DNA of 64,000 bases, taken from positions 40,998,368-41,062,367 of the forward strand of contig CM055106.1 in assembly GCA_029204225.1 (NCBI GenBank), read 5' to 3'. Each line of letters begins with the position of its first letter. Within the stretch, counting starts at the first letter, position 1. This stretch comes from Diphasiastrum complanatum. Taxonomy: Eukaryota > Streptophyta > Lycopodiopsida > Lycopodiales > Lycopodiaceae. This document shows, one piece after another, positions 1 to 53,129 of this stretch. The translations under genes and the position numbers were made by a program. Under the pieces are notes generated by a model, which did not search any database, was not told where the DNA came from, and saw only the letters and a list, made by a program, of their open reading frames with translations.

Positions 1-1131
1 CTAAAAGTACATCTTTGATTGCAATTTTTTTTCACATCTTTGTACTAGAGTAAGCTTGCCAGTTTGCAAATGTGTCTTGCTTGTTACACTAGGTTATGGC
101 CTCCTCTAATTTGAGAGTGTATCATGTGTGGTCAAGTAATTGCTGCTAGTTCTCCCCTAGTTATTTTTCTCAACACCTGTGTTGTAACTTGTTAACGAGT
201 ATGTGCATTCCTGAATTTATCTTAATGCACCATTCAAATATTCAAGTGAGTTCTTTGTTTCTACTTGGCTTGTTCCTGGTTGAGATTGCAGGATGATCTG
301 TACTTCCTCATATGTTATATGCTTGCTCCAAAGTTAAAGTAGTTGACCTCCTTTTAATGGGCCAATGAAACTCTTATGACCGTTCTTGGGGGGCATTAAA
401 AATGGATAGCATCTAGTCTGTGGTCCCTAATTCTGGATTGATCTTGATGTTTGCTTTCTCTTTTATGACATGTTCTATTAGAATGCATCTTTTATTTCAT
501 AGCACAGAATTGAAAGCGTATCATATTGGGGCATGTGAAGGATAAGAGATGCCATTTCGCTTTTGCGGAGTTAGAGAAAATACAACATCTGGGGTGTGCT
601 GATACAGGAGCTTTCTTTGGCTTTCGAATTTTGTGATAGAGCTAGTATATATCTTCCACTTTTTGACATTTTAACTAGAGAATGTTTGCAATTCTAGCTA
701 TATATATTTTCAATGCTGTTTTAAATCTCAAAAGCCACTTGCAATGAGTATTGTCCATTTATACGATTGTTCATTTTTTGCAGAGTTTGCCTACTTATGT
801 TGCATTTTACATGCTTTTAAGCCTATTATTTGGAAACCGCTTTGCTGTTTAAAGAAAAGCAACTTAAATTTGACCTGAAGCCAACCTGGTCAAATTAAAT
901 ATTGAAAAGGATGTTATAAAGTTGTAAAGTTTCACTCGAAAAGAATGGATTTGGATTTTAAGAAGCATAATCATGTGAACATGTTTTAGAAATGGTATAA
1001 TTTTGTACTATTTTGCCTGTAGATAAGAAACTTTAAATGGAAAAGAATATAAAAATGCCTGTGTAGTATGCACGTCTGGTGGGACCTTGAAAATATGCTA
1101 AAAATTCTTCTTCTTCTTTTTCTTCTTGCAG
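1..1131 (+). other. Probable intron upstream of the OSB-PPR gene
   Basis: No open frame of useful length or recognisable family is seen here. The stretch ends in a long pyrimidine tract followed by TTGCAG at 1126-1131, a strong 3' splice site for the exon at 1132. I therefore infer that most or all of it is an intron of the gene that continues to 4708. An upstream exon within this stretch cannot be excluded. Confidence 0.5.
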
Positions 1132-4100
1132 TGCTCGTCCGGCAGAAAGTTGGATGACAAGAACCTTGGAGGATAGACGTGAGAGTTTAGTTCTGCTCTG
1201 GTTTTGATTAATGCTGCTATTTCTTTTTTGCCTTTTTTGTTGGCCTTCCCAATCTATCCCCCTTTTATAACCGTACGCGCTATCTACGATTCTCGCAGTT
1301 CTTCTGCTTCTTCCGCTGTTGTAAGTTAGCCAGGTGTGATGGACTGTTAATATGCCTGCGTGTTGTGCTGCTCCCTTTTGATGTGCTGGATTGGCTATGG
1401 ATGGGCTATCAGGCCAAGCAGGCAGAATAGAATGTCTCTGGCAACAGTTCTTCTCGGATCCTTCGCACTGCGCTGAAAAGGTGAAACTGCCACTACCCTA
1501 TCTATTTCCTTCATTTATATAATGAAATGCTTTAGGATGACTCCAATGGACACCCTATTTTAACTGCGGTGATCATTCTAGTATCTTGTGGAGCTTTGAT
1601 GGTTGCAGTCTACTATATTCCAAGAGCTGTGATCATTCTAATATATTTGCTTGAAGCTATGGCTTCTATGGTTGCATGTCTGTATTTCTTTTCAGAGAAA
1701 TTCAAGATTTCCTGAATATAAACATAAGACTGCAAAGAGGGTACTATGGATTCAAAATAGGTTCAATCCTCCTTGGGTGCATGCTAGGCTAGCTGCCATG
1801 GTAAAATGTCAAGAAGAGGGGGAAGCTGGTGTTTCAACTCCTGAAATCTCTGGTATGCTTATATTTTACTCATGTTCACTTTTTGCCATCAGCATTGCCT
1901 GAGTGAGGAGAGATCAATTCGCAAATATGTTCAAACTTGAAATGCACATCAACTTTCCTAAATCATAATTTGTCAATTCTGATGCATGCTGGTTTAGGGC
2001 CTGCAGGCAGAGTAGTTAGAATGGAACAGCTCTGGCATGAGTTTTTTTCGGATCCATCACAGTGGTGGGACAACAGATTCATTAAGGTATGGCTATCCAT
2101 CTTAACGCCCATTGAAGGTGACTTTGTTTGTAAGGCTGTGAGGACGGTTTTGAATTTTTTTTAGGCTTCAGTTGCTTTGGCTAATCAGTTTTGACTTGCA
2201 TCTATTGATGGGGCTTTTGATGGTGCTGACTTTAATTCAGTTGAACTGTTGAAGCTATTTGTCTGCTGATTTATGTATTGTTTTGTAGAAAAGTCCAAAG
2301 TACCCGGACTTTGAACATAAGAGTACACATGAGTGCCTATGGATTAAAGGTCGGCTGAATCCACCCTGGGTTAAAGCAAAGATGGCCACTATGGCATTAG
2401 GTCATGTACAGTCTGGTGGTGGATTGAGATCACGGTATGGTTTTGATCCCTGTCTGGACTCTTGAGCCCTATGCTAAGAGTGCATCATGTCTTTTTTGTC
2501 GCCGGACTTTTGAAATTAACCCATTTTCATGTTTCTTTGTAATTATTATATGAAGCATGCAGGGTGCCCGACTCCTTTGGCAATGGTGATAATGTGAGCA
2601 AACTCTGTCAGGAGGGACGATTGAAGGAGGCAATGCATATGGTAGAGCTTATGGTCCAGCAAAATGTTCAAGCTCCAATCAATGCCTATGTTGGCCTTTT
2701 GAAGGGATGCGCCAGAAGGAAAGCCCTGGCGGAAGGCAAGCAAGTGCATGCCCTTATAGTCAAAAGTGGACTTGATTCAGACATTTTTATAGGAAGCACC
2801 CTTGTGTACATGTATGCCAAGTGTGGCAGTGTGCTGGATGCACGTAAAGTATTCAATACAATGCCTGCACACAATGTGTTTTCATGGACTGCTATCATCT
2901 CAGCATATGCCGAACATGGACAAGGTGAGGAGGCTATTCATCTGTTTCAGCAAATGCAACAGACAGGCATAGCACCAGACAAGGTTGCATTTGCTGTTGT
3001 CCTAAGAGCATGTGCCAGGATTGCAGCTCTAGATCAGGGCAAACAGCTCCATTCTGATGTCATTAAACGTGGCTTTGAGTCCGATGTGATTCTAGGGAAC
3101 ACCCTTATTGACATGTACGCCAAGTGTGGCCGTGTGCTGGATGCACGCAAAGTATTCAACACAATGCCTGAGCACAATGTATTTTCATGGACTGCTATCA
3201 TCTCAGCATATGCCGATAACAGACAAGGCGAAGAGGTCATCAATCTATTTCAGAAAATGCAGCAGACAGGCATAGCACCGGACAAGGTTGCGTTTGTTGT
3301 TGTCCTAAAAGCTTGTGCCAGTATTGCAGCCTTGGAAAAGGGCAAACAGCTCCATTTCCACATTATAGAAAGTGGCTATGAGTCGGATGTTATTGTGGGT
3401 AGTGCCCTTGTTGACATGTATGCAAAATGCGGGTGCATAGAGGATGCATGTGAAGTGTTCAACAAAATGAAGGAACGAGATGTGGTGTCATGGAATGCGA
3501 TGATTGCAGGATATACACAGCAAGGGCTTGGAAAGGAGGCTCTTGCTCTGTATAAGCAAATGAAACAGGAAGATGTGCAGCCAAACAATGTCACATATGT
3601 TGTTCTCCTGAATGCATGTGCCTGCATTGCAGCCCTGGAACAGGGCAAGCAGCTCCATTCCAGCATCATCCAAAGCGGCTTCGAGTTGGATGTGATTGTG
3701 GGTACTGCCCTTGTTGACATGTATGCAAAATGTGGGAGCATAGAGCATGCATATCAGGTGTTTGATAGCATGAATGAACGGAATGTGGTGTCATGGACTG
3801 CGATGATTGCAGGATATGCACAGCAAGGACATGGCAAGGAGGCTCTCACACTTTTGAAGCAAATGCAAAGGGAAGGCATGAAGCCTAATGAGGTTACCTA
3901 TGTTAGTGTTCTCTCTGCATGCAGCCATTCTGGCCTAGTAGATGAAGGTCGTCACCTCTTTGGAATCATGTGCAAAGATCATGATGTTACACCAACTTTG
4001 GATCATTATTCCTGTATGGTGGATCTTATGGGACGTGCAGGGTGCCTGGTTGAGGCTGAGGACTTTATAAAGATAATGCCAATTCAGCCTAATGCTGTGG

Positions 4101-4708
4101 TTTGGATGACTTTGCTCGGTGCTGCTAGAAACCATGGGCATGTGGAAATAGGAAGACGTGCCTTTAATTGTGTTGTGAAGTTGGAACCAGAAAACGCTGC
4201 AGCTTATGTGCTTCTATCAAACATCTATGCAGCAGCAGGCCAGAAGGATGAGGTAGCAAAGATAAGAAAAAAAATGAATGATGCAGGTGTGAAAAAAGTG
4301 CGTGGGTGCAGCTGGATTGAAGTAAGCAATCAGGTACATGCCTTTATTGAAGGTGATGCAATTCATCCACAAAGCAAGGAAATTCATGCAGAATTGGATA
4401 GATTGGCGAATTTGATGAAGGAAGCAGGGTGTACGGCTGATTTGAGTTGGGTGCTGCATGATGTGGAGGATGAGGAGAAGGAGAATGCTTTGTGTGAACA
4501 TAGTGAGAAGCTGGCAATTGCTTTTGGTCTCATCAGCACACCCCCTGGGACACCTATTCGCATTAAGAAGAACCTTCAGCTGTGTGGTGACTGCCACAAT
4601 GCCACCAAGATAATCTCCAAAATTGCCAAACGCGAAATTATCGCAAGGGATGCAAACCGATTCCACCACTTTAAGGATGGCTTCTGTTCCTGTGGGGATT
4701 ATTGGTGA
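1132..4708 (+). CDS. OSB-type PDF motifs fused in frame to a PLS-class DYW PPR protein (5'-partial)
   Basis: Exons are inferred at 1132-1178, 1413-1480, 1696-1852, 1998-2086, 2289-2434 and 2563-4708. All have GT-AG borders and the phases match at every junction, giving 883 visible residues before the TGA. Exons 2-5 encode two copies of the PDF motif of plant organellar ssDNA-binding (OSB) proteins. The last exon encodes a PLS-type PPR array, E/E+ motifs and a DYW cytidine deaminase domain. Known roles of the two families are organellar ssDNA binding and recombination control (OSB) and C-to-U RNA editing in mitochondria or plastids (DYW). The protein is therefore probably organellar, but its N-terminus and any transit peptide or OB-fold lie outside the visible exons. 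The last exon has no ATG near its start: its first codon completed across the splice is Arg, then GTG (Val), and the first in-frame ATG is at 2633, inside the first repeat. This supports reading through from the PDF exons. The alternative is two genes, an OSB-like gene and a separately started PPR gene. Confidence 0.8.
1413..1852 (+). other. First PDF motif (exons 2 and 3), diverged
   Basis: The two exons join in phase 0 at 1480/1696. The first half reads CLWQQFFSDPS and the second has PEYKHK, LWIQ and NPPWVHARLAAM. This follows the OSB PDF pattern (W..FF..P..WWDNR, then PDFKHK, LW, NPPWV). The WWDNR block is replaced by CAEK and PDF is replaced by PEY, so this copy is the more diverged of the two. 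Exon 3 ends in phase 1 and matches the start of exon 4. Confidence 0.75.
1998..2434 (+). other. Second PDF motif (exons 4 and 5), canonical
   Basis: The exon at 1998-2086 encodes QLWHEFFSDPSQWWDNR. The exon at 2289-2434 begins KSPKYPDFEHK and continues with LWIKGRLNPPWVKAKMATM. These are the hallmark residues of the plant OSB PDF motif. The intron sits between the WWDNR and PDF blocks, at the same place as in the first copy, so the two motifs arose by duplication of an exon pair. Exon 5 ends in phase 2, and the final exon at 2563 supplies the single missing base. Confidence 0.85.
2563..4708 (+). CDS. Terminal exon: PLS PPR array, E/E+ and DYW deaminase
   Basis: Residues are counted from the Val codon at 2564. 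A partial first motif (about 12-38) is followed by repeating L-S-P motifs to about residue 440, then L2 and S2 (to about 510), E motifs (about 511-580) and a DYW domain to residue 714. Deaminase residues are intact: H646 and E648 in HSEKLA, C674 and C677 in CGDCH, then HHF at 701-703, C708 and C710, and a terminal DYW. The PG box reads RGCSWIE instead of the usual PGCSWIE. Successive triplets are very similar to one another, showing recent internal duplication. With the published fifth/last-residue code, the S and P motifs suggest a target roughly A-G-n-Y-G-n-G-Y-n-A-A upstream of the edited C; that reading is inference. A 165-aa antisense frame at 4217-4714 is a shadow of this exon. Confidence 0.95.
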
Positions 4709-7700
4709 TGACAAGTGTAAAAGGCAGTTTCACAAGCTTAGTTGGAAAAGAAGAAGGCTTAGTTCTGGAATTTTTGGCAGCCTTAATTGTCAAATGGTAT
4801 AGCCCAATTCCCATATGGTTTGAGCTCAATTCCATATAATCTGTATTAACATGTATTTTTTGTACATCCCAGTGGCAGAAAAGAAATTGTATAGAGCTAA
4901 AATGAAGCACCAAACTTTCCATTTTTGGCCCTACCTCGTAGGCAGGGGTATCGGAATCACTACACCAAAAGGCACGTTCACCTTGGGGACAATAGCACAC
5001 ACGATATCGAAGGTGAAGACACTGTAAGATTAAATTTCTCAAATGATCTTTTCAAGCTACTATTGTCCATGTACCAAATTTGTCTACAAATCTGCTATCT
5101 GTTAGCAGAAAAACAAATTTAGGACATAAAGTAGAATTTGAATCTGATCAGTGTAGAGGTATCGATAGCTAGCACTCAAAAAGAGGCATGGATACTTGTA
5201 TAAATTAAGTCATTGTTATTCTGCTACCAATCAAGCTCTGGATTTTTGCATGAAAAGCATCATTGCTAAGTGGATTTATGCATGAATCTGAAAGTTAATG
5301 CATGTGCACGTTCTAACCCTATTCACTCGCTGTTAGAAGAGTTTAAGTTGTTTTTGTGCTCGGTGGTGTATTTCATTCTCTTGGAATTCTGTTCTTCACC
5401 TTGTAGATGTGGTTTGTCGGTTCATCTTCCTCATCAAATTTGCATCTGCCTTGCAAATTTGTGTGAATGGATTACTTTGATTTGCATCTACCTTGCAAGT
5501 TTGTGTGATTGGATTACTCTGATTTGCTTCAAGCGATTGTTTTGATGATGGTTGTTTGAATGAGACGACATTGCAATATCAAATTTTTCTCCCTTGTCAT
5601 ATTTTTGGCGGATTAGAACATCTTTGCCATCTTTATCCTTTTGCCATACTGTACAAGAAGTAGCTAATATCCTACTACATTCCATCACAGCACAGCTCTT
5701 GATAGTCATTATGACTTTTCATGAACTGTCAAGGGGGAAAGATGCTTCAGGCAGTGAAATTATCATTAGTAGTAGATGAACTGAACCATAACTACAGTTT
5801 CATCAGTAGAATTACATGTAGATGTGATAGAATTTTTTATAGCTAATTGGAGTACCATTTGGATAAACCCACAACAAGAATCGAATTCAACAGAAAAATG
5901 AAAATGGAATACATATGCTTTTATTGAAGTAAACCGCGAAACCATGAGTAATTATCCTATTAGCAAATGTAGCCTATTGGTTGAGGGCTCCTTTCCTAGT
6001 TTCATTCCATCACATACAGTATAAAAATATGATCAAGATGGTGTAATGGTCTTGTGGTTGGACTCTGTAGAGATAAAGATTGCATGTTTGTTTTGTGCTA
6101 CTTGATGAATCTATGGTTGTGGCATTTGATGCCTTAAAATAAACATTACAAGGTCTTCATATAATATTAAATGCTTTATATTGTGTCTATGGTGGAAATG
6201 GTTTCATTGTGCAAATGTTATGGATATAGGTTAGGAGCTACATGTTACACGTCTTGTTCCATGCAACAACTTAGAGGGAAGGAGAGTTGTTGATGGCTAT
6301 TGTCAACCATGCAACCAATGGTTGGATCTTTGCACCTTTAAACACAACAATCATTGTTTGTAGATGAAGATAAGTGTTGGGACTAAAGGATGCAAGCCAT
6401 GAGAATGAGATACCAAACAACAAAAAGAGATGGCCAAAAAGAGGGTTGTTGTGGCGGGTGAAGCTTGAAAATTTGCCTAGTAGCTTACAATGTGGAAGAG
6501 GTTGCATGGACAAAAACTCTTGTGCCATCATAATGAGCCACTTTGCAACACAAATGAAAGAAGGTATTATGACCATTGATGACTCCTTGAATGCTAATTG
6601 TTCTTTTACATGCCAAATAATTCATCTTTTGTACGTTTTTTCCAAATGCAAAGTTAATTGATATTTTTCTAATGCTCTCAAGTGGTGCATGCATAGGATC
6701 AAGTTATCACCACTTTGCACAATTGATAGTTGACTTGAATGAATACTTCCAGCTTACTATTTTCTAATCAAAATTTGTATATTCTTGTCATTAGAAATGC
6801 TTCACTACTATTTTGAACCTATTGATCGCACCAAACACATGGGTTATTGTTGAGAGTAGCTTATCAAGTATTCATATCTAGCAGCCATCTTTTTTATGTC
6901 ACTTCAAGGGATTGTTTGTTCTTTGTTTTTTATACATAGTAAGTTGTTTGACTCGTTCTATATGCTTTTGACAAAGTCTTTTTGAATCTTTTAGTCCTCG
7001 CTCTAGACAAAGAGTATCTGGGGCATACAATGAAATGGCTACTATAAAAGCATACCAGTAGCAAAGCAATTCCTTGTCACCAGTTTGTGGCTACATTTTT
7101 AGAAAGTGCTTATAATTGTTTAGGCTAATATGTAGTTTGTAGAAAATCACGTCAAAGCAAATAATTGACATCGGCTTGTTGACAAAAAAGCATTGCCAAG
7201 AAAAACCTACTTGGGAGAAGTATTTGCCAGCATTGTTGTTATTGCATTGTTGTTATTGCAGGCGGTAAAGTTATGGGTGGTTGACAAAAGGTAATTCTAA
7301 TTGTCTTCAATTATGGCATAATGATTAGCATTTACTTTTCTTACCCCATGGATTGAGTTCTTGCTTCAAAGTTTGTACATGACCAAAAATGTGGATACAA
7401 ATCAAAAATATATAAAAAATGATCTTTTGAATATAGATAGATAATGTTTATTTGATTATTGTTGTTGGTGATGATGTTGGTTTGTCATGCAAGTTGAGGG
7501 CCTAGGGATGTATGTAAGAAAAAGACAAGGACACAATTTTTTTGCTATTTATGAAGGTGCATCTACAACGTGGGCATGCATGTAGGAAAAAGAAAAGGAC
7601 ATGAATGTTTTGCTATTGATGACTTGTGTGTATTGGTGCATTTAAAGGAGTGAATTCTTGCAATGGAGTCCCTAGCAACGTGGCAAAGCTTTTTGTGGGC

Positions 7701-8438
7701 ACAAATCATAAATTCTCATTTGGGTTTACCAAATTGCCTTTATTATGCTCGTTCCATATGCGTTGTTGAATCATTGTTTTATGATTGTGTTCTCCTTTCG
7801 AAATGGCATCATAGTTTCTCGTTTTATTGCTTGCCTCAAAATATCCCTAAGGAATCCAAGCCCTTGAAAGATATGGTGTGGGCTAAAAGTTGGTGTGGTT
7901 GAAAGAACCACCTGGCTCAAGGCAAGAAAAAATAAAACCCCGTGCAAAATTCATCTAGGACACACCATCCCCCCCTCGGTTTGAAAAACACGGGCCATGT
8001 CCTGCACATGGGCACACACTTGTAGCATATTTGATAAATATTTGAGATTTGAGAAAGATATTTCAGATGCAATATATAGTATCGGCATGCCAATCCTCTT
8101 CCAAATAGAAGAGATTGGTTTTACTCTTACTTTTAGAATCCCAAATTGTATGCAGATGAAGGATAGAAGGGCCTATATCAGTGATTTAGTGATTGAGACT
8201 GGTCTCCCCTTATTGCAATATGATATTGCAAGGGATTTCATGAAAGAAGTGTCGCTTCTCAGCAATTTTTTTCTACAAGGCATCAAGGACAACAACGACC
8301 CTTTGTCACATTGTAGCCTTGGTGCTTGCTCACCTGCTGTGAAGTTTCTCTTTACTTGTCAAATTCTTTACTTGTGTACTTCTTTACTTGTAACTACTAT
8401 ATCATTTATCTAATGAAATTCTTCATGGTTGTTTGTAG
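4709..8438. other. Gene-poor stretch downstream of the PPR gene
   Basis: About 3.7 kb contains only short, unconvincing frames. The first few hundred bases are the likely 3' UTR of the PPR gene. The stretch includes a 42-bp tandem repeat at 5438-5528 and a degenerate duplication of about 60 bp (7503-7562 and 7570-7642, sharing the gtaagaaaaaga-type core). No gene family was recognised, although further exons of the ULP2-like remnant could lie in its right part. Confidence 0.5.
5438..5528 (+). repeat. 42-bp tandem repeat, 2.2 copies
   Basis: Two adjacent 42-bp units begin with ATTTGCATCT at 5438 and 5480, and a third partial unit starts at 5522. The two full units differ at only a few positions. 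The repeat lies in noncoding sequence and no function is suggested. Confidence 0.85.
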
Positions 8439-9060: not shown

Positions 9061-10773
9061 CTACAATTGACCCTTCAGCAGTTGCACCTGTTGTTTTGCA
9101 TCCTGCACGGCCTTATCCACCTGATCCTGTGCGGTTGTCAAGGCGTCTTGCAGGGAGCTAACATATCCTTCAAGGCGATCAGCATGTTGCTGGCCCAGCT
9201 TCTTTTCAACTTCAGACTTGTCTTCATGCTGTTTGGAGATCTTCAACTCTTGATCCAGTTGGACAATCTTTTGGCTGATCAGAGTGTTTTCGGATCCCAT
9301 ATCTGAAATTCTCTGCTCTATTTCTTTCTTCTTATCCAGCATAGACTGGATCACTTGCTCAAGGCTTGAGACCAAACCCAGAGCATCATCAGAATCTACT
9401 GTCATGGAGGCGGCAGCAGCAGGAGGACCTGATGGTACTGTCCTTGGTTGGCATGGAATAAGTGCCAATACTTCTTCTTCTTCAAAAATATCTTCTTCCT
9501 CGAAATCCTCATGCACGATGGCGTCGAAGTACTTCGGAGATCTCACAGCTTGGTCAACCCGAAGTGCGACTGGGCTATCTTCAGTGTGAGGGTGCTGACT
9601 TACATCTTCAACATCGACAATAGTGTCGTGGATCTGTTCGAGTCCTCTTCCAAGGGATTGGAGGTCAAAGGGCGCAAGGCTTTGGGGCATTTCAAAAATT
9701 TTGGCGGCCCCAAGGGGGTCAAAATCATCGAACATATCCATGAAAAACTGCGTGTTTGGTGAAGTAGCTTCAGTGTGCGGGGGTGAGGCGGCCTGGGCAG
9801 CTGTGATGGGAATGGTAGCCCCAATGGTCACAAACTGTCCTTGTGTGGAAGCAGAGGTGAGGGAAGCATCAGAGGCGAGAGAAATTGGAAGCTCAGTGCG
9901 AACAACAGCAAGGGGTGGAAGCGCAACTGACGATGTATGCCTAGTGCGACGTCGTGACGCGGAAGGCGAGTCAGGAATGCCGATCTCACTGCGTGGACAA
10001 CGTCGACTATGAGAACTCGAGGCCTGGTGAGATGACTCGGCCGGTGCTTCTTCATAGATCGAAAGCACAGAATCCAGGTGGAAGCCATGGATTTTGTTTT
10101 CTAGGTGAGAGGCCGCTAGGAGAGACGATAAAGAGCCAATAGCGAACTGCTGCTTAGTATTGCCCTCAATAGCTCGTTTGAACTCACCAAAAACAGTCTT
10201 GAACCAATTATATGGTTCAAGAGGGGCTTTGGCCAACTTGGTATATGACTCAACTATCCTATGGAGGATCTGTGAAGTGATGTGGTGTTTCCGGAGGTTC
10301 CCAACCATCAGGAAGTTGTTCAGTAGCTGGGCAGCAGTGTGGATGGAAGGCTTAGTGATGGCTTTAAGGAGGTATTCGTCGTTTGTCCAGTGCAGATCAT
10401 TGGTGAGGTCAATGTAAGGCTTTATGGCCTGTTTGGCCTGCTTATGATTGGGTGAGGCCTGTGTACCGGATGCTATACCTATGGCTGCAAGGGCGGCCTC
10501 AATGACGCGCACCTTGTGTGTGGCTCCCTGAAAAGTGAGATAAAATTTGGATTTATCTTCCTTCCACATACTGAAGTCAAGAGTGATGAAATCCATGTTG
10601 ATTCTGCCAGAAAAGGCTCTCTCATGAATACCCATTGTAGTGAGCAGAGGCTCCGCAAGGGTCATCCACCGAGTGACCATGCTTGTGCTAGGAAGTATCA
10701 TGATGTCCGTTGCAGATGGGATATCACGATGGATAGCATAATGCAGAGACTGGGAAGTATCAGTAGAAGACAT
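9061..10773 (-). CDS. Accessory open frame downstream of pol, coiled-coil C-terminus
   Basis: From the ATG at 10773 the frame encodes 570 residues. An upstream in-frame start at 10992 would add 73, but the MSSTD start looks more natural. I do not recognise the family. Residues 1-240 look globular and have a mixed helical composition. Residues 241-400 are a Ser/Pro/Ala/Arg-rich linker. An acidic block lies near 420-440 (EDFEEEDIFEEEE), and residues 460-570 are rich in heptads and probably a coiled coil. More heptad-rich open sequence continues in the same direction to about 8.81 kb. It lies downstream of integrase, in the same direction as pol, where some Tat-lineage elements carry extra genes. 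It is much longer and less decayed than the pol region beside it. It could be an element-encoded structural protein or a captured host gene, and I cannot decide between these. Confidence 0.6.
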   Translation of the reverse strand: MSSTDTSQSLHYAIHRDIPSATDIMILPSTSMVTRWMTLAEPLLTTMGIHERAFSGRINMDFITLDFSMWKEDKSKFYLTFQGATHKVRVIEAALAAIGIASGTQASPNHKQAKQAIKPYIDLTNDLHWTNDEYLLKAITKPSIHTAAQLLNNFLMVGNLRKHHITSQILHRIVESYTKLAKAPLEPYNWFKTVFGEFKRAIEGNTKQQFAIGSLSSLLAASHLENKIHGFHLDSVLSIYEEAPAESSHQASSSHSRRCPRSEIGIPDSPSASRRRTRHTSSVALPPLAVVRTELPISLASDASLTSASTQGQFVTIGATIPITAAQAASPPHTEATSPNTQFFMDMFDDFDPLGAAKIFEMPQSLAPFDLQSLGRGLEQIHDTIVDVEDVSQHPHTEDSPVALRVDQAVRSPKYFDAIVHEDFEEEDIFEEEEVLALIPCQPRTVPSGPPAAAASMTVDSDDALGLVSSLEQVIQSMLDKKKEIEQRISDMGSENTLISQKIVQLDQELKISKQHEDKSEVEKKLGQQHADRLEGYVSSLQDALTTAQDQVDKAVQDAKQQVQLLKGQL

Positions 10774-10992
10774 GATGAGTAGAAAGGAAATGTGAGATGC
10801 GTGAAAGTATAATAGAAAGCAGTCCAGGAAGTTTGGAAGGCTTTGGTCGTGGGAAAAATTCGCAAGAGCTTCGCTAGCACAAGTGAGGAATGAATCGAAT
10901 TCAGCCAACTTATAGGTGAATTTGGTGGGTCCATTACACTGAATACTAGTTTGGCTGATCAGTTCTGAACAAAAATTTGCAGGCATGTACAA

Positions 10993-11400
10993 TACTATGA
11001 AAATAGGCTATAAAAATCTTGGCGAAGGTTTATGGGAATCTGAACCTATCAAGCAAATGTTTTCCAGGGCTGACGAAGGATGAACCTCTGCCCAAGAGGC
11101 TCCTTTGCCCAACTATTGTCATAAATACATTTTTTCACAATCTGAACCTATGGACAACCTAATTTTGACAATTTAAGATCACGGTTCATAATGAGGTTAA
11201 GGTGCTCGGCGAAGGTTCCCAAATTGGCATATCACTGATCCTTCGTCTGACTCAAAAAACTGGATTTTTCCTGGACAGGAACCTTCGCCCAACTCAAATT
11301 AGATAAATCTAGAGTGGATGTATAGTCTGAGAGCTCAACGAAGGTTTCTAGTACTATATTGGCCACATCTGACCAAAACAATGATTTTCTAAGTCATTTT
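10993..11400. repeat. Noncoding spacer with iterated CGAAGG/CCTTCG motifs
   Basis: The core GGCGAAGGTT or its complement AACCTTCGCC, or a close variant, recurs at about 11023, 11067, 11207, 11236, 11278 and 11335, on both strands and roughly every 30-140 bases. The sequence between the motifs differs, so this is not a simple tandem repeat. The same motif fills the leader of this element at 15.3-15.96 kb. Confidence 0.6.
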
Positions 11401-11921: not shown

Positions 11922-12780
11922 TTAATCGTTCGGTTGCTGCATGTGTAAGGATGGGATTAAAAATTTAATTGGCATGACAACATCTTGACCATAAACCAGT
12001 TGAAAAGGTGTTTGATTTGTACTATTTTTGTAAGCGGTTCTGAATGCCCATAACGTTGCATACAATTTATGTTCCCAATCAGACCGACTTGCTTCAACTA
12101 TCTTTGTCATAATGGTGCAGAGAATCTTATTGGAAGATTCAGCTTGGCCATTCTCTCTAGGATAGTAGGGAGCGCTAAATCTATGTATCACAAAAAAATC
12201 TTCCAATAAACACTTTATTGTTTGATTAAAAAAGTGTGTACCCCGGTCGCTGACAATCTCGATCGGACATCTAAATCTGATTATAATATTTTCATACAGA
12301 AACTTGGTCGTAGATTTTGCATCAGCAACTTTGACAGCTTTTGCTTCAACCCACTTGGTCATATAATCAGTTGTTACGATAATGTATCGAGCTTGAGATC
12401 CTTGTGCGGCAGGATGAATAGGACCAACATAATCCAATCCCCATTTTTCAAATAGTGCTTGCGATAAAACCGGATGCAAGGGTTCATAATTCTATCGAGT
12501 AGGTCGTTGTGCTCGCTGGCAAACATCACATGTCTAAATAAAATTTTCTGTGTCCTTATAAAGCGTAGGCCACCAACAACCTGATTGCAAAAGTTTGCGA
12601 ACAATAATATCTGTAGAGAAGTGTCCTCCACCCATGTCATAATGTGAAAACATGATTAAATCTGGAACTTCATGCGGTAAAACACATCTTCGTAGAATAT
12701 GGTCTGATCCATGATGATACATTGTCCTGCAATTAATTGATAAGGTTGAGTCTTATGAATCAATTGTCTCTTCTGTACTT
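11922..12780 (-). mobile_element. Integrase region of the Tat-like element
   Basis: A His-containing zinc-binding segment (HYDMGGGHFSTD, then CWWPTLYKD) lies at about 12.53-12.72 kb. The DDE core lies at 11922-12479, with LDYVGPIHP, SDRGTHFFNQ and ENGQAESSNK around the three acidic residues. The order matches Ty3/gypsy integrases. No chromodomain was seen after the core, which fits Tat rather than chromoviruses. The region is a broken fossil. Confidence 0.9.
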
Positions 12781-14265
12781 TTGTCAAGGAGCCATTTGGT
12801 TGTCCTAGCATCACGTACTCAACAATATCCACTGCCCACTCAGGTACGGCTTCAACATAGAACAATGCAGCATCTAGTAGTTTATCATCCACTTCAGTAT
12901 TAACTGGTGCGGATTCAATTCACGAAACGTGATCGGCTAGATAATGTTGCTTCCCCTTTCGAACCACAATGCAAAAGTCAAAGTCAGTCAATAACAATAG
13001 CCATCTTGCAATACGTCCAGTATTGCACATCTTGTTTACCAAGTAAAGTAACGGCTGATGATCCGTATAAAATGCAAAGTGAGTTTCCATGAGGTAGTGA
13101 TGAAATTTTCAAACGGAAAAAATCATGGCTAACGCTTCACGTTCTGTTGTTGAATAATTCTTCTCTGGATCTATAAACTGTCTGCTTGCAAATCGTATAG
13201 GATAATTCTTCTTATAATCACCTGGCTGCGTCAAAACTGATCCAATGGCATATTTTGAGGCATCCATATGAACATGAAATTCTATCATCCAATCTGGAGA
13301 ACGCAGTATTGGTGTTGAAGTTAATGCTTTTTTTAACTTTTCAAAGGCTTCTAACGCCTCTACTGTCCAAATAGGAACAATAGTCAGTTTGTATATAGCG
13401 TGCTAAATCCGCAAAGAAGATAATAAAAATGCGATAGTAGTTCGCATGACCTATAAACACATAAACTCCACGAATTGTCGTTGGCGGTGGCCATTCCACA
13501 AAAACCTTCATCTTAGAATAATCGGTGGCAATACCATGTCTTGATAGCACATGTCTAAGCACAACTCCGTGGGAAACCCATATCTGGCATTTTTTTGGAT
13601 TTAGAGAAATGTGATATATGCGGCATCTTTCAAATACTTTCTCCAATCGATCCAGATGGTTTGCATCTATACTAATGGACTCCCAGGTCATCCAAGTAAA
13701 TTTCAAGAAATTTCTGCAGATAATATTTAAAAGCAAATTGCATTACTTGTTGGAACGAAATTGGTGCATTACAGAGTCCAAAAGGCATTACTTTGTAAGC
13801 ATAGATGTCCCATTCTGTTGCAAAAGCGGTTTTGTGATGATCGATAGGTGCTATCTTAACTTGGTTGTGTCCACTAGATCTATGTAAGAAACTATAAGCT
13901 TTCGCTCAAGCAAGGCGATCCAAAATGTTTTCAGTGAAAGGTAACGAAAAGTGATCCTTCCGCGTCACTTTGTTCAATGCTTTGAGATTCACACAAATTC
14001 TCAATTTTCCATTCTTTTTAGGAACAATGACAATCGGTGAAATCCATTCGGTATGCTCAATCTCATAAATGAAATTGGTGTCAAGCAATCTCAAAAGTTC
14101 TTTCTTTATCAGGTCCGCAACATTAGGATTACAGCGATAGAACTTTGTAATCTTTGGGACTACATCAAGTACTAAAGGTATGGTATGTTCAATCACAGAT
14201 GTCGGAATACCCTTTAGATCTTGATAAGTCCATGCAAAGCAATTTTGATACTTAATAAGTAACAT
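12781..14265 (-). mobile_element. Reverse transcriptase and RNase H region of the Tat-like element
   Basis: The start of RT is clear at 13906-14265 (TEWISPIVIVPKKNGK, RICVNLKALNK, KDHFSLPF). The later RT part lies at about 13.34-13.74 kb, and RNase H-type sequence follows to about 12.9 kb, ending before integrase. The gene order gag-RT-RH-INT is that of Ty3/gypsy. The region is decayed, with several breaks. Confidence 0.85.
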
Positions 14266-14986
14266 GCAGAGTGCTTGATACTGTTCAGGAGTAAGTTGTG
14301 ATCCAACTTGTACAATCTTTTCCGGTTCTCCTGGTTCAACAAGATTCCTGAACCGCCATCTATCACAGCTGCTTCTTTAGGAAATTGTCTATGTTGTATC
14401 AGCATAGTGATATTCTTTTGTTCACTCTCCCAAGCGGCTCCAACATGGAGTACTTCATTAGATTCTTCAAATCTAGCACAAAAAAGTGGCTCCTAATGGA
14501 CTTCTGGTTCTTCTTGAGCTACTTTTGCTTTTGGCACCAACTTCAGGAACTCTCCCAATGAAATATTGATCTTACTAGACAAAATATTTATGAGTAGTTC
14601 TATTTGTGGCGCTTCTGGTTCAGTCATCTTGAAGGGTTCTTCATGATGATGCAACTGATCATTCATATCTGTACGTGGATTTCTTGGAGGTTACAATGGT
14701 GAAGAACGAACTTCTGTTGTTGCTTTAGCAGCTTCAAGCTCTTCTTCTTCTTGCAGATGTTTGATCCACTGTCTCATATGCTGATATCTTCATTTTTCTG
14801 CATGAAGATTTGGATAGACTCCCGATGCTATTGGTATATTGTTCAATGGTATAGAATCAACAGGTATTGGATCCACTACTGGTTCTTTCTGCTTCTGTGT
14901 TCTGGTGACCACCATCAAGGGTGCACTTGGTTTAGAGCTTCACTTGATTGTTATCAAATTTACAAGTGTTGTAGCTGGTGGTGGCT

Positions 14987-42949: not shown

Positions 42950-44110
42950 TAAACAAAACTCCATAAAGCACTTTATGGCTTGAAGCAATCTCCTTGAGCA
43001 TGGTTTTAAAAATACTTTTTTTATTGATAACGGCTACACACCAAGCTCTTCAGATTCGAATGTCTACTTCAACTCAGTGCAACATTCTTTTATGATTATC
43101 ACTTTGTTTGTGGATGACACATTGCTTTTTAGCAACAATATCGATATGATAAAAGATGCTAAGACAATGCTATCTTCCGAATTCGACATGATCGATCTGG
43201 GCAAAGCTCATTATTGTCTAGGTATTCAAATGCAAAGAGACAAAAAGCAGAAATTGCTTTATATTACTCAGCAAAGATACATTCACAATGTATTAATCGA
43301 ATATAATATGAGAAATTGCAAAGTACCTCTCTCACCAATGGATCCAGGGGTCAAGATGTCGAAGGACCAATGTCCCCGAACAATCGAAGAGAAGGAGCAA
43401 ATGCGTGAGTATCCTTATCATTTGATAATAGGATCTCTTATGTACACGATGATCTATACCAGACCAAACATAGCTTTTGTACCATAACGTGCCACATGGA
43501 TTTATTTATTTTCCCTTCTCAAATCCAACATGTTTTTAGCAAGTCCTTTGCAGGGTCTTGATGAGATCTCATAAGCGTTGGAAGGCTCTTATCAAAGTCA
43601 TGAGATATCTTCGAGCTACTATGGACTTTTGCATTTGTCGTGGAGGAGTCTAACAACAAACTCAATATTCTCAATGGTTTTTCAGATGCAAGTTGGGCAG
43701 GAAATGTAGACACTCGTAAATCCACTTCAAGATTTACATTCTTCCTCAACAATGGTCCTAATTCCTGGAACAGTTGCAAATTTTTTTTGATAGCTCTATC
43801 TTCCATTGAATCAGAGTATATTGTAGTCTCTCAAGCTACAAAGGAAGCAATATGGTTGAGAAACTTACTTTTAGATATCAGTCTGAATCAATATGCTTCG
43901 ACAATTCTATTTTGTGATAATCAAAGTGCCATTGCTTTATCAACCAACCCTATATTTCATTCTAAGAGTAAGCACATTGAAATTAAGTATCACTATGTCA
44001 GAAGCAAAGTTCTCGACAAAGAGATTGATTTGCAGTACTGTCGAACGCAAGATATGACAATGAATATTTTTACTAAAGCATTAAGCTTGGATGCACAGAA
44101 AAGTTTTTGA
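42950..44110 (+). mobile_element. Ty1/copia fragment: RT and RNase H
   Basis: Landmarks are KALYGLKQSP at the start, ITLFVDDTLLFSNN (YVDD-type catalytic box, here FVDD), FDMIDLGKAHYCLGIQ, GSLMYTMIYTRPNIAF, then the RNase H part (GFSDASWAGNVDTRKSTSRF, IESEYIVVSQATKEAIWLR, LFCDNQSAIALSTNPIFHSK and KHIEIKYHYVR). The order is that of copia. An LTR follows at 44147. The copy is broken. Confidence 0.9.
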
Positions 44111-46910: not shown

Positions 46911-47960
46911 AATGATGGACCGTTATAGTCAAAACATTCAATTTCTATCTATTGATGAAATACAATCTGAAATCGTACATTACAGTCTTGTACTTGACGG
47001 ACAACCAAGTTCAATCAACAGTGATGATTGGTTGATTGAATTAGAAGTTTATTTTCGTCATCGCCATTATTCTGAAGAAGATAAAATCTATTTCGCTTCA
47101 TTGCGCTTTCAAGGACAAGTTCGAGCATGGTGGGATACTCAAGCACATTCGAACACAAAGCTTTGGAGTCAATTCAAAATTGCTTGCATCGATAGTATTA
47201 CCAGATTTTATGAGAAATAATTCGAATCTCCCAAACAAACTGGTTCTGTACAACAATTTAATTAGCAATTCTTGGCATTGGTTCAGAAGACAAAATTTGA
47301 GTATAGAAAATGTTTGAACTACTATTTAAATTCTCTTCAAACTCCTATCGGAAATGTGCTTCAACCACATTCTTCCAAATCCATTTATGCTGCTAGTTTT
47401 ATGGAGTTGTGCAATATGATGGATCGTGCACTTGCTCTGGAGCACTTATCTACAAACCATATCAATGAATGGTGGAAAGTCACCACTCAACGGAAACCTT
47501 ATTATTACAACCAACGACTATCTGAATACGTTAGTCCTACCTTTGATGGAAGCATCCACTCCATTAATGTAGACAATTGGCTAGAGGATTTGGATTATAA
47601 CTTCTACTATAGTGGAGGTATTGGTGAAAGTGATATAGTTTTATTTGCTTCATCGGGTTTCCAAGGTCGTGTTCAGTCATGGTGGAACATCGTTCACGAC
47701 TTTCTTTCTGAAAACTGGAGACAGATCTTCAATCGATTTGACTTCATCCAATGGTGTTCTTTGAGCCAAATAACTATAGTTTGAGAATTCCAATAGATGG
47801 TTCCAATATTTGATTATGGAGAAATATATCTTGTACAATGCTATATATATGGCTTATAATCTTAATATTGGAGCATTATAGAAAATTATCTGCAAACTAC
47901 TTCTCTCCAGCCTGGATTTCAATTAAGGGAAACTATGGAATATGCCTTAAAGTATGAGCA
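46911..47960 (+). mobile_element. Ty3/gypsy gag fragment with a duplicated gag core
   Basis: Gag starts at the ATG at 46912. A first core has INSDDWLIELEVYF and FQGQVRAWWDTQ, with a second core downstream at about 47.54-47.75 kb (INVDNWLEDLDYNF and FQGRVQSWWN). The two cores resemble each other, so the gag contains an internal duplication. Gag-like sequence fades at 47.95 kb, where minus-strand copia begins. No pol remains. The copy is broken. Confidence 0.75.
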
Positions 47961-49737
47961 ACAAGAACTTGTGTAAATTGTCTTTTAGTCCCACATTGAT
48001 CACAAAGATCATTGAAGTCATTAGACTTGTACTCACCTCCACTATCTGATCTTAGGACTTTGATCTTCCTACCTGTCTGATTTTTGACCAATGCTTTGAA
48101 GCTCTTGAAGTTATCAAATGCATCTGATTTCTTCTTCAAGAAGTAGATCCACGTCTTACGTGACATATCATCAATAAAGGTCATGAAATAGAAGGCTTTA
48201 CCTAAGGACATGGTCCTCATAGGCCCACATAAGTCTGTGTGGATTAAATCCAGGATGTTCTTTGCTCTTGCAACACCCCCTTTATTGAACTTCTCTCGAT
48301 GCTGCTTCCCATATACACAGGATTCGCACATCGATTTCAGGTGATCTTCTATGGTAGGCAATCCTGTTACCATCTCCAACTTTCTCATCAAACAGAGGCT
48401 TCCCAAGTTGAAGTGACCAAGCCTCTTATGCCACAACTCAGTTTGTGATGGAATGGACGATACAAGTCCATGTTGTCCCTTAGTTGTAGCATTCAACCTG
48501 TACAATTTTGTATTGGGCTCTCTTACTTCATCCGCAATAACTTTGAACTTTCCATATCCTTCACAAAGCAACGATCATGGGCAAATTCTACTTTCAACTT
48601 TTGATCAATAATGACTCCAACAGAAAGTAGATTTTTCTTCAAACCTGGTACGTAAAGTACCTCCCTGATCATCCTACTTTTGCCATCAGGTAGTTGGATT
48701 GAAACGGTGCCTATCCCCTTGATCTTGCACACCTCACCATTTGCTTGTGAAACAGATGTTCCTTTATCCAACACTTTCAAGCTATTGAACCAATTCTTGT
48801 TATCTGTCATGTGTCTTGTGGCTCCCGAGTCAATATACCATGCTTGATCATCTTGATTAGATGACAATGCAGATATGAAGATACTAGAGTTTTCAATCTC
48901 ACCCTCATCGACAAGGTTACCTGCTTGTTTTGGTTGCCCCTGGCCTTGTTTCGCCAGGAATTTGCGACATTCACTCTTCCAATGGCCCTTATTACCACAA
49001 TGGAAGCACTTGCCTTTCTTCCTGGTTTTACTGGAAGATCCCTCGTCCTCCTAAGACTTGGCAAATTGCTGCTTAGACTTATTCTTGCCCTTGCCCTTGC
49101 CTTGTTTTTGGCGTGTCGCAAGTGCTTGATCATCAGTATTTTGACGTCTAGCTTTCACCATTTCTCTACGTTGCTCTTCCTGCATCAAGATTCCTGTGAG
49201 CTCGTCAAAGGTTGGCAATCTTTCTCTTGATGCTATTTCGCTCACAAACATTTGATAGGGTTCTGCAATGCTGCACAATGCATTGTGCACCAGCTCCACG
49301 TCACGTATGCGCTCACCAATAGAATGTAGTTCATCTCTCATTGTCTTGATTCTGGTCATGTACGTCTGAATGTGCTCTCCTTGCTCCATGCAGGCACTAT
49401 TCAACTCTGACTTTAGAAACATGATTCTTGACGGATTTGACATCTCAAACTGCTCCTTTAGCACATCCCATGCCTGTCTGGGTGTAACAGCATCACTAAT
49501 GTGGGTAATGATGTGATCCTTCACTGACAAGTTAATGAAGGTCAAAGCTTTCCTCATCTTTTTGTCGAACACTTTGATATCTGTTTTATTTGGTGGCCTT
49601 CTCTCATCACTTGTGACAACTTCCCACACGTCTTTCTCCATCAGTATGTTTTTCATTTTGAATTTCCACACAGCATAGTTGGAAATCCCGTCCAATTTGC
49701 TACTTTCACTCAAAATGGACTCTCCCATGTTTGCCAT
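47945..49737 (-). mobile_element. Ty1/copia 5' half: gag, protease, start of integrase
   Basis: On the minus strand, gag begins at 49737 with a UBN2-like region (DGISNYAVWKFKMKNIL, DAVTPRQAWDVLKEQF). A zinc knuckle follows (CFHCGNKGHWKSEC, near 49.0 kb). The protease active site lies at about 48.83 kb (WYIDSGATRHMT). The GAG-pre-integrase region (LWHKRLGHFNLGSL, CESCVYGKQHREKF) and an integrase start (DLIHTDLCGPMRTMSLGKAF, LRSDSGGEYKSNDF) come next. It is cut off inside integrase at about 47.95 kb, next to the gypsy gag. It is less decayed than most copies here but truncated and with a few breaks. Confidence 0.9.
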
Positions 49738-50780
49738 CGCAAAACTGCTTGAAACTTCTGTCGTAAGCTAAAAACAGTATGCCAAGGCCAACGGTGATGT
49801 CAGAAGTTGAAAATAATGACCTGCGTTTTTTCCCTTACCTGGCCACTCGTCGCTTTTCCACCAATTTGAGAGCCAAATCGGTATCGCCTTCCGAAATCCA
49901 CTCAGTCGTCAACTCCCAACAACGTGCCCAGTGGAATGGTGAAATTACTTATGAAATTATAGGGCCAAATTCCTTGAATCATGTAGGTGGATAACCAATC
50001 TAGCCACCAACTTGGCAAAAATCTAGGGTTAGGTAAGATTGGCAAATTAGGGGAAAAATGGTCAATCATCTTCCTTATTACATGCTGGATTTTCACCTAA
50101 CTTGAGGTGGGGAAGATCTTTTTGTACATACAATCCATCTCTCATAGTAATGACTTAGATTTTTGAGAGCAAATCGGCAATCTTGAGCTTCTTCACTATT
50201 TGTCTTGTGTTTTTGTGTAAGTATTTCAATCAAAACTTGATTACTATAATTCTCTAATATTAGGCCCCATACTGGAGGCTATTCCACATGTGTGTGGGGT
50301 TGTATTTTCATATTTGATCATTCTATTTGATTGCTCTTGGTTGTAAGATCCTAGTTTGCTAATCTAGATCAAGGTACTTTCAACATCAAATGTGTCAAAG
50401 CACCTTTTCTATTTTATGATCAGAGTTTTCCAAACTATCAAACATGTAATGTATCCACAAAAATATGATGTACTACCTTAAAAGTAGATATCGTTCATGA
50501 TAGTGATGGTTTGATACAATGTCATGAATTGTCACTTGAACTACATACTTTGGTACTTGCATTATCATGACATAGACTATATAATTTGTTTTACATGAGA
50601 ATGTGAATGGTTATGAATGATTCAGATGATACAATGGCTCATGCTATGGTGTCTAAGCCTTTTGTGGGTTTGGATAATAAAAAGCTCCCACCTCTATATG
50701 GTTCCCACCACCTCAAGCATGGTACATATATGTGACTTGATAGCATGATTTATTGACATGTGGCACTAAAAAACGTTGAT
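49738..50780. other. Sequence upstream of the minus-strand copia piece
   Basis: Part of this may be the leader and LTR of the copia element on the minus strand, but no primer-binding site or LTR border could be fixed. The rest is AT-rich with no recognisable family. Confidence 0.4.
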
Positions 50781-51639: not shown

Positions 51640-53129
51640 AGGAGGACTTTGATTGCACTTTCTGACGAATCAAACTTGGACACTGGTTGACTTCCCCACT
51701 CACAAGAGAGTTATCGACAACAAGTGGGTTTTCAAGAAGAAGATCAACTCAGATGGTTCCATTGCAAATAGAAAGCATGAATGGTGGCTAAAGGATTCAC
51801 TCAAGTCCAAGGAGTGGATTATCAAAAAAATTTCAATCCTGTTGTCAAGATGCAGTCAATTAGGACTCTGATTTCGTTAGCAGCCGCAGAAGACCTCGAA
51901 ATGCACCAAATGGATGTGAAGACAACATTTCTCAATGACAACGTCGAAGAGGAGCTGTATACTTTCCAACTGGAAGGATTCAAAGTCAAAGGCCAAGAGC
52001 GCAAATTGTGCAAGCTGCACAAAGTAATCTACAGTCTGAAACAGGTCGCAAGAGCATGGTTCAATAGAATCAACTCTTATCTCATTCAATTGGGATTTGC
52101 AAACAATTCAGCTGACTGTAAGTTTATTGGAAGCATATAGGCACCAATTCAGTTCACCGAGCTCTTTACATTTATGATGCATTTATTTTGTCTAACGACA
52201 CTTCTCTTTTGCACACTACTAAGAGTGATCTGTCAAAAGAATTTGACATGACTGATTTAGGAGTTGTCCATTCTTTCCTAGGAATTTACATTACTAGAAA
52301 TAGGCTTCAGAAGAAGATCTATCTTATCCAGCATGCATATCTAAAAGGCATTTTAGAAATTTTTCATATGTCTCTTTGCAAACCAATTGATACTCCAATG
52401 GATCCATGTATAGTATTGACTAAACCTAATTGTGCTTATTCTGATCATTCACTAATAGGATCTTTGATGTATGCAATGTTGTGTACTAGACCAGATTTAG
52501 CATACACAGTTAGCACGTTAAGTCAATTCATGTCTAATCCTAGGATCTCTCATTGGAAAGCATTAAAGAGAGTGATGAGATATATTTAAGGGATTTTAGA
52601 TCACATTTTATGTTATGATGGAAATGCTATTGACCCACTCGTCTTGCGAGGCTACTCCGACTCAGATTGGGGAGGAACAGGCTCTACTAGAAAATCTACC
52701 TCTGGGTTCTGTTTCTATCTAGCAAGGGAACCGATTTCGTGGATCTCAAAGAAGCAAAAATCAGTTGCGCTTTCTTCGACAGAGGCATAGTACATCGTAG
52801 CATGCCAAGCTTCAAAAGAAACTGTATGGATTAGGTTGTTACTTCACTACTTACATCACACTCAGTTCAATGCTACCACCATTTTGTATGACAACTTGAG
52901 CTGTATTTCACTGTCACTGAATCCCATATTTCATGGCAAATCCAAGCACATAGAAATCTAGTATCGTTTCATTTGGGAGAAAGTTTTCTCAGGGCAAGTG
53001 ATCCTTCAATACTGCTCCACAACAAAGCAGACATCTTCACCAAAGTGCTTCCCAAGATCAAGCATCAGAAGTTCTTCAACATGCTGAACCTGACGAAGAT
53101 ACCAAGGCACCAACCGTCTTATGGGAGAC
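51640..53129 (+). mobile_element. Ty1/copia 3' half: RT and RNase H
   Basis: Landmarks are TWTLVDFPTHKRVIDNKWVF, VAKGFTQVQGVDY, LAAAEDLEMHQMDVKTTFLN, CKLHKVIYSLKQ, FDMTDLGVVHSFLGIYITRN, SLMYAMLCTRPDLAY and, in the RNase H part, YSDSDWGGTGSTRKSTSGFC. It runs directly into an LTR at 53130. Integrase and gag are absent. The copy is broken. Confidence 0.9.

Follow-up and report, generated by a model that had tools for sequence, protein, structure and literature searches.

The window analysed here is a stretch of 64,000 nucleotides (nt) of the lycopod Diphasiastrum complanatum (assembly GCA_029204225.1, contig CM055106.1, positions 40,998,368 to 41,062,367 of the forward strand), and all positions below refer to it. 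The gene ending at 4708 probably belongs to a large nuclear family whose proteins consist of a leader, one or more PDF motifs of the type known from organellar single-stranded DNA (ssDNA)-binding proteins (OSB), a PLS-class PPR tract, an E motif and a DYW deaminase domain, and in which the PDF segment would add a contact to nucleic acid. PDF and PPR-DYW parts share one reading frame, both are under selection, the DYW domain carries the catalytic signature, and the predicted PPR codes differ between most members. We know of no described PDF-PPR-DYW protein. Literature searches, which left subscription papers outside their scope and do not prove that the fusion is unpublished, found none either.

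Gene structure in the window

The open frame at 1413-4708 consisted of five exons joined by GT-AG introns, with phases of 0, 1, 0 and 2 after the first four, and ended in CSCGDYW and a stop codon. Including 1132-1178, six coding blocks in one frame and five GT-AG introns were obtained, with cumulative phases of 1, 0, 1, 0 and 2 (Table 1). The initial annotation had described two PDF motifs joined in phase to a PLS-PPR-DYW exon; the junctions and phases held, while PDF 1 proved to be degenerate and not intact. The frame of the exon carrying the PPR tract was open from 2543, with the earliest in-frame ATG at 2633 and none within the exon's initial 70 bases, which agrees with the earlier statement that this exon has no ATG at its beginning and that its frame extends back. 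Pfam recognized PPR repeats, the E motif and the entire DYW_deaminase domain in this exon. The E motif and the DYW domain exceeded the curated cut-offs, and E+ was under its cut-off (16.5 versus 24 bits). The closest solved structure to the PPR-DYW part was 9kfx, a synthetic PPR-DYW protein (E 7.5e-272). As judged from the sequence, the joining of PDF to PPR-DYW in this gene is confirmed as real. The PPR tract itself is internally duplicated, as shown by four tandem P-L-S units at 2707-3915 with a spacing of 303 nt, of which units 2 to 4 match unit 1 at 79, 66 and 64% identity.

The frame of the first exon was open back to a stop codon at 1088-1090, i.e. from 1091, and contained a sole in-frame ATG at 1154. 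Homology to the first exon of the relatives stopped near 1105. In relatives on contigs C13 and C18 an ATG-initiated first exon ran unbroken, by way of a stretch rich in Ser, to SW(V/M).STLEEE and then into PDF 1. A similar ATG exon led straight into the C-terminal half of PDF 1 in 18 of 19 further loci (L010-L028), a group in which PDF 1 is present as this half only; at the exception, L019, the end of the contig was reached before the leader. The leaders of all these copies were of low complexity and roughly 85-105 aa long in most. No homology to two relatives, leader included, was found in the 10 kb preceding the window. An exon start at 1132 had been proposed, but this border sits within the coding sequence of two relatives whose ATG first exon is unbroken, and it is doubtful because the acceptor-like site aligns with their Ser-codon (TCT) tract; the site at 1131 is probably part of such a tract. 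The window member thus probably lacks its original 5' end: either the copy is broken at the 5' side, or its start is supplied by a new upstream exon.

Table 1. Positions of the parts of the PDF-PPR-DYW gene in the window
Feature	Position	Strand	Basis or score
Ancestral first exon, 3' part (KYAKNSSSSFSSCSARPAESWMTRTLEDR)	1091..1178	+	Comparison with relatives on C13 (L049+L004) and C18 (L050+L006)
PDF 1 first half, degenerate (SHCAEK where relatives have SQWWD(N/R)R.DK)	1413..1480	+	
PDF 1 second half (RFPEYKHK...LWIQNRFNPPWV)	1696..1852	+	
PDF 2 first half (MEQLWHEFFSDPSQWWDNRFIK), intact	1998..2086	+	omega 0.27
PDF 2 second half (KSPKYPDFEHKSTHECLWIKGRLNPPWVKAKM...)	2289..2434	+	omega 0.38
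Phase-2 intron between PDF 2 and PPR exon, 128 nt	2435..2562	+	
Exon with PLS-PPR tract, E, weak E+ and DYW deaminase	2563..4708	+	
DYW deaminase domain (HSE, CGDC, HHF and CSCGDYW present)	4427..4705	+	PF14432 1-93/93, E 9.4e-44; DYW match C15:41002794

Recurrence of the arrangement and selection

The genome of the window (1.745 Gb, 5176 contigs) was searched with PDF 2 as the query; there were 931 candidates at first look and 166 matches, the best 150 of which were listed. From these, 47 places were examined, namely the window gene (L001), the best-ranked places (L002-L008), the next ranks with apparent duplicates omitted (L029-L048), and L010-L028, of which 17 had been picked for open frames of at least 578 aa, L027 had a frame of 176 aa, and L028 lay 0.6 Mb off on the same contig. 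At all 47 places a PPR exon in phase with the PDF exon followed it on the same strand. Because the layout recurs at 46 other examined loci, that of the window is more than chance, and the gene is by its sequence no singleton but a member of a large PDF-PPR-DYW family.

L021 and L022 have two junctions each, so that 49 were compared. GT was present at the homologous phase-2 place in every one, and the acceptor AG was confirmed by script in 47; at L038 and L044 the lengths differ slightly, and an in-frame AG was visible by eye. The introns measured 105-216 nt and fell into all three length classes, with 32, 10 and 5 of the 47 script-confirmed junctions leaving a remainder of 0, 1 and 2 after division by 3 (27, 10 and 5 of the 42 distinct sequences). 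At the fifteen junctions whose intron length is not divisible by 3, the frame can be held by splicing only. Of the 47 script-confirmed copies, 4 have a Met in the segment of the PPR exon that precedes the first Met of the window gene.

Spliced models of L010-L028 showed in-phase GT-AG borders at three junctions in 18 of the 19 loci; in L026 a donor was not found by pattern, yet its PPR-DYW frame was open. Eleven loci (L011-L016, L018, L020, L023, L025 and L028, with L014 and L015 near-identical) were complete from the first Met to the GDYW stop and encoded 816-1237 aa. At L021 and L022 two tandem PDF-PPR units were seen around 3700-8200, where the first PPR frame continues into PDF-like sequence of the second unit; this layout suggests that these loci grew through tandem duplication or through unequal exchange.

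A second search was carried out with an OSB-type PDF consensus, the best 150 of 920 candidates being scored. Some of the matches shared an open frame with a DYW match, and two such loci were read. L063 (C1) encodes KYPDFKHKKTQEALWLVDRQNPPWV...PPR...SCRDYW in a single open frame of 653 codons, and L064 (C18) encodes RYPDFKHKETQEALWIDGRSTPPWV...PPR...SCRDYW in one of 867 codons. In both, the shared exon contains the C-terminal half of PDF only, and Pfam named no PDF family in either. As PDF half, PPR and DYW are uninterrupted at these loci, the fusion is independent of splice prediction. Three further one-frame places are implied by coordinates alone, and identical spacing suggests that the five represent three distinct genes, the additional places being a second copy of the first and one more gene pair. 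The claim that PDF and PLS-PPR-DYW lie in one protein is thus in agreement with the one-exon relatives, the phases and the selection described below. The DYW domains of L011, L012, L013, L023, L025 and L026 have PFG or PSG where the window gene, L063 and L064 have PPG.

The linkage was also counted from the DYW side, where the best 150 of 472 candidates were scored; both the PDF and the DYW lists are the best-scored parts and include near-duplicate contigs. Of these best 150 DYW domains, 41 had a same-strand PDF match from the first query at most 5 kb upstream, compared with about 0.03 expected for random places, and the three other arrangements of strand and side gave 0. With 238 merged PDF matches and a distance of 6 kb, 54 of the best 150 had a same-strand upstream PDF, with 0 downstream and 0 on the opposite strand. 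On 23 large contigs the figure was 46 of 119 best-scored domains. The true PDF-linked share of DYW genes may be higher or lower than 54 of the best 150, and the family size is a lower-bound sample. The PPR codes predicted from the fifth and last residues differed between most models, as expected if members serve different sites, and were identical for L014/L015 and L021/L022; the pattern-based parse is rough and misses some motifs.

Nei-Gojobori omega was calculated pairwise among all nonredundant copies without stops, and 95% ranges were obtained by codon bootstrap. It was 0.27 (0.13-0.57, 18 copies) for the first half of PDF 2, 0.38 (0.23-0.57, 40 copies) for the second half, 0.43 (0.27-0.66, 30 copies) for the 23 PPR-exon codons before the first Met, and 0.36 (0.26-0.47, 38 copies) for the subsequent 108 PPR-exon codons. 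In the two shifted frames omega was 0.74-1.83. The ranges are too narrow, as the pairs share ancestry, and the contrast between frames is what counts. Stop-bearing copies, counted before filtering, numbered 4, 2, 3 and 1 in the four segments and were removed; the set for the first half of PDF 2 was also filtered of wrong matches, 22 loci giving 18 copies after removal of near-duplicates and stops. These values point to purifying selection that is specific to the true frame and acts on PDF 2 in both its halves as well as on the PPR segment preceding the first Met.

Relation to OSB proteins and other elements of the window

The 169 residues upstream of the PPR exon gave no significant Pfam match (best E 0.088), and no PDF model turned up in Pfam. 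The segment holds MEQLWHEFFSDPSQWWDNR...PDFEHK...LWIKGRLNPPWV, which we identify, by the wording of a passage in a review that covers OSB proteins (PMC6963530) and by resemblance to OSB sequences, as the OSB PDF motif. The same source describes the motif as about 50 residues long and present in one or more copies in OSB proteins; pentatricopeptide repeats are mentioned in its passages for yeast and animal RNA polymerases. The second half of window PDF 2 aligned to the OSB-like PDF exon on C13 with a score of 101 and 16 of 36 residues identical, compared with a mean of 20.1 (standard deviation 4.2, maximum 36) for shuffled sequences. One search of PDF against solved structures gave a best E of 0.61 and a second was without matches. 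WWDNR, PDF and LW were mostly kept across the family models, with exceptions such as WWDSR and WWDTR. PDF 1 of the window has SHCAEK where C13 and L007 have SQWWDNR and C18 has SQWWDRR (L002 was unaligned there), and its PDF triplet reads PEY.

An OB-fold exon had been suggested upstream. No PF00436 match was detected when the 10 kb preceding the window were read in three forward frames, nor was an OB-fold found in its positions 1-1133, where the best match (E 0.43) was to another family. In the first exons of the relatives the leader passes directly into PDF sequence, without an OB-fold exon. None of 12 genomic PF00436 matches was located at a listed PDF-PPR place, although a very diverged or intron-split OB-fold could escape such a search. 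Within 1.5 kb on either side of these 12 loci no PPR and only weak PDF matches (best E 0.04) were found. A candidate stand-alone OSB gene was noticed on C13 (G000 C13:6218671-6165220, minus strand), in which about 20 kb separate the OB halves and a PDF exon follows after about 33 kb more. The two PF00436 matches here were below the cut-off of 26 bits (24.3 and 21.1 bits) and were read as halves of an OSB-like OB-fold. Beyond them, on the same strand, lies the PDF exon L065, which was picked as a suspected stand-alone OSB outside the 47 places; it ends in a stop codon and had no PPR in the following 2.2 kb. Together these pieces may form one OSB gene with very long introns and no PPR.

Compared with AtOSB1-4, the proteins of the family share the PDF motif, judged by resemblance only, and differ in that no OB-fold was found and a PPR-DYW enzyme is attached, whereas OSB proteins are described as OB-fold plus PDF only. 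With the PLS-class PPR-DYW C-to-U editing factors of land plants they share tandem PLS repeats, E and a DYW domain with HxE, CxxC and C-terminal DYW; the difference is the PDF motif or motifs N-terminal to the PPR tract.

Elsewhere in the window, pieces of Copia-type long terminal repeat (LTR) retrotransposons were present at 42984-43484 (+), 47936-49767 (-) and 52122-52586 (+), with RVT_2 in both plus-strand frames and gag_pre-integrase, integrase core and copia gag in the minus-strand frames. An integrase core domain was found at 11925-14376 (-); the adjoining reverse transcriptase-like frame (13909-14376) appeared by eye to be gypsy-type and had no Pfam match. Beside this retroelement lies an open frame of 648 codons (9064-11007, -) without a Pfam match at E 0.001. 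Scans of the window for tRNA genes and Rfam families gave no matches.

Explanations and implications

The best reading of the class is that its members are nucleus-encoded C-to-U editing factors whose N-terminus derives from OSB and binds nucleic acid, and the simplest mechanism would be that of an ordinary DYW editing factor which has gained one more contact to single-stranded nucleic acid. Organelle import would be due to the putative leader, the PPR tract would bind a particular transcript upstream of the target C by its 5/last-residue code, and the DYW domain would deaminate this C to U. Given the ssDNA binding known in OSB1, the PDF segment could serve as an extra single-strand contact, which would either increase the affinity for the transcript or keep the factor at the nucleoid, the site of RNA synthesis. 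Several observations weigh against this reading. The window copy has neither the ATG nor most of the leader that its relatives show. With frames truncated at 7 of the 19 long loci, some members of the family are decaying, and because 17 of these 19 were picked for long open frames, intact copies are favoured. As PDF lacks a Pfam model, its name is based on literature passages and resemblance. For the first half of PDF 2, omega in one shifted frame (0.74, 0.40-1.52) overlaps the in-frame range.

It is unlikely that the PDF exons are mere passengers, i.e. that an organelle-targeted OSB-type gene gave its leader and PDF, and hence import, to a PPR-DYW frame without a role for PDF in editing. The leader abuts PDF directly, PDF 1 is degenerate in the window and halved in the L010-L028 group, and the search for an OB-fold in the 10 kb upstream, in window positions 1-1133 and at the listed PDF-PPR places gave none, all of which such an origin would fit. 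However, a passenger would drift, and selection on both halves of PDF 2 is about as strong as on the PPR part, with WWDNR, PDF and LW mostly conserved in the models. We regard it as very improbable that the protein has two jobs, with PDF acting on organelle DNA in recombination surveillance or on R-loops and PPR-DYW acting in RNA editing. In its favour, the PDF motif of AtOSB1 is sufficient for binding ssDNA according to PMC6963530, and loss of OSB1 in Arabidopsis mitochondria is described in PMC8330923 as raising R-loops at two of three tested repeats together with ectopic recombination. The initial annotation had likewise linked DNA maintenance to editing through a retained OSB-like DNA-binding and recombination module; this finds no support, as no OB-fold was found before the window, in positions 1-1133 or at the listed PDF-PPR places and the leader of the relatives abuts PDF, and the presence of PDF upstream of 54 of the best 150 DYW domains resembles an expansion of editing factors, not a DNA-maintenance gene. 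A coupling of the family to DNA maintenance is a hypothetical possibility.

Two adjacent genes, one OSB-type and one PPR, that were duplicated together and never formed one message are scarcely conceivable. Read-through at the window donor (2435) does meet a stop at 2463-2465 and would give an OSB-like end, but L063 and L064 contradict this explanation for those loci, phase is kept over introns of all length classes, and the PPR segment before the first Met is under selection; moreover, intron 5 is only 128 nt long, and its in-frame ATG at 2471 is ended by a stop at 2540. Misassembly and the two-gene reading were both rejected on the phase of the 49 junctions, the one-frame loci and the one-sided arrangement of PDF and DYW. 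A different matter is whether the family is real and the window copy a 5'-broken pseudogene that is being lost, to which we give somewhat less than an even chance. The lack of an in-frame exon ATG before 1154, the lack of homology to the relatives' leader in the 10 kb upstream, the degenerate PDF 1 and the truncation of 7 of 19 long relatives speak for it. On the other side, the PPR-DYW frame of 2.1 kb is fully open although the compared relatives are 75-87% identical in the main DNA alignments, the best-ranked relatives are 78-84% identical in the protein of the PDF 2 exon, and omega against the window copy was 0.35-0.43 for three segments.

With the PDF-bearing editing factor as the preferred reading, the known part of the protein is the DYW enzyme class, and the new part is the conserved and multiplied N-terminal module. 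Gene fusions of the rps14-sdhB type in grasses are comparable, in which a second gene for an organelle protein provides a nuclear gene with 5' exons and targeting. The likeness is the gain of 5' exons by exon joining; here, in contrast, the upstream module is under selection and the fusion was multiplied into a large family. The family illustrates how a class of editing factors could expand via the capture of another organelle protein's 5' exons. If it is expressed, about one third (54) of the best 150 DYW domains would stand behind a motif otherwise of organelle DNA-maintenance proteins. It is a rather improbable extension that a large part of organelle editing in this lineage is performed by DYW enzymes tethered through PDF to ssDNA or R-loops at the nucleoid, with editing at transcription; if true, the cytidine deaminase, being fixed to ssDNA, might act on organelle DNA as well. 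The family is a natural setting in which to test whether editing factors benefit from extra contacts to single-stranded nucleic acid or from tethering to the nucleoid, and designed PPR editors might use PDF as an auxiliary module.

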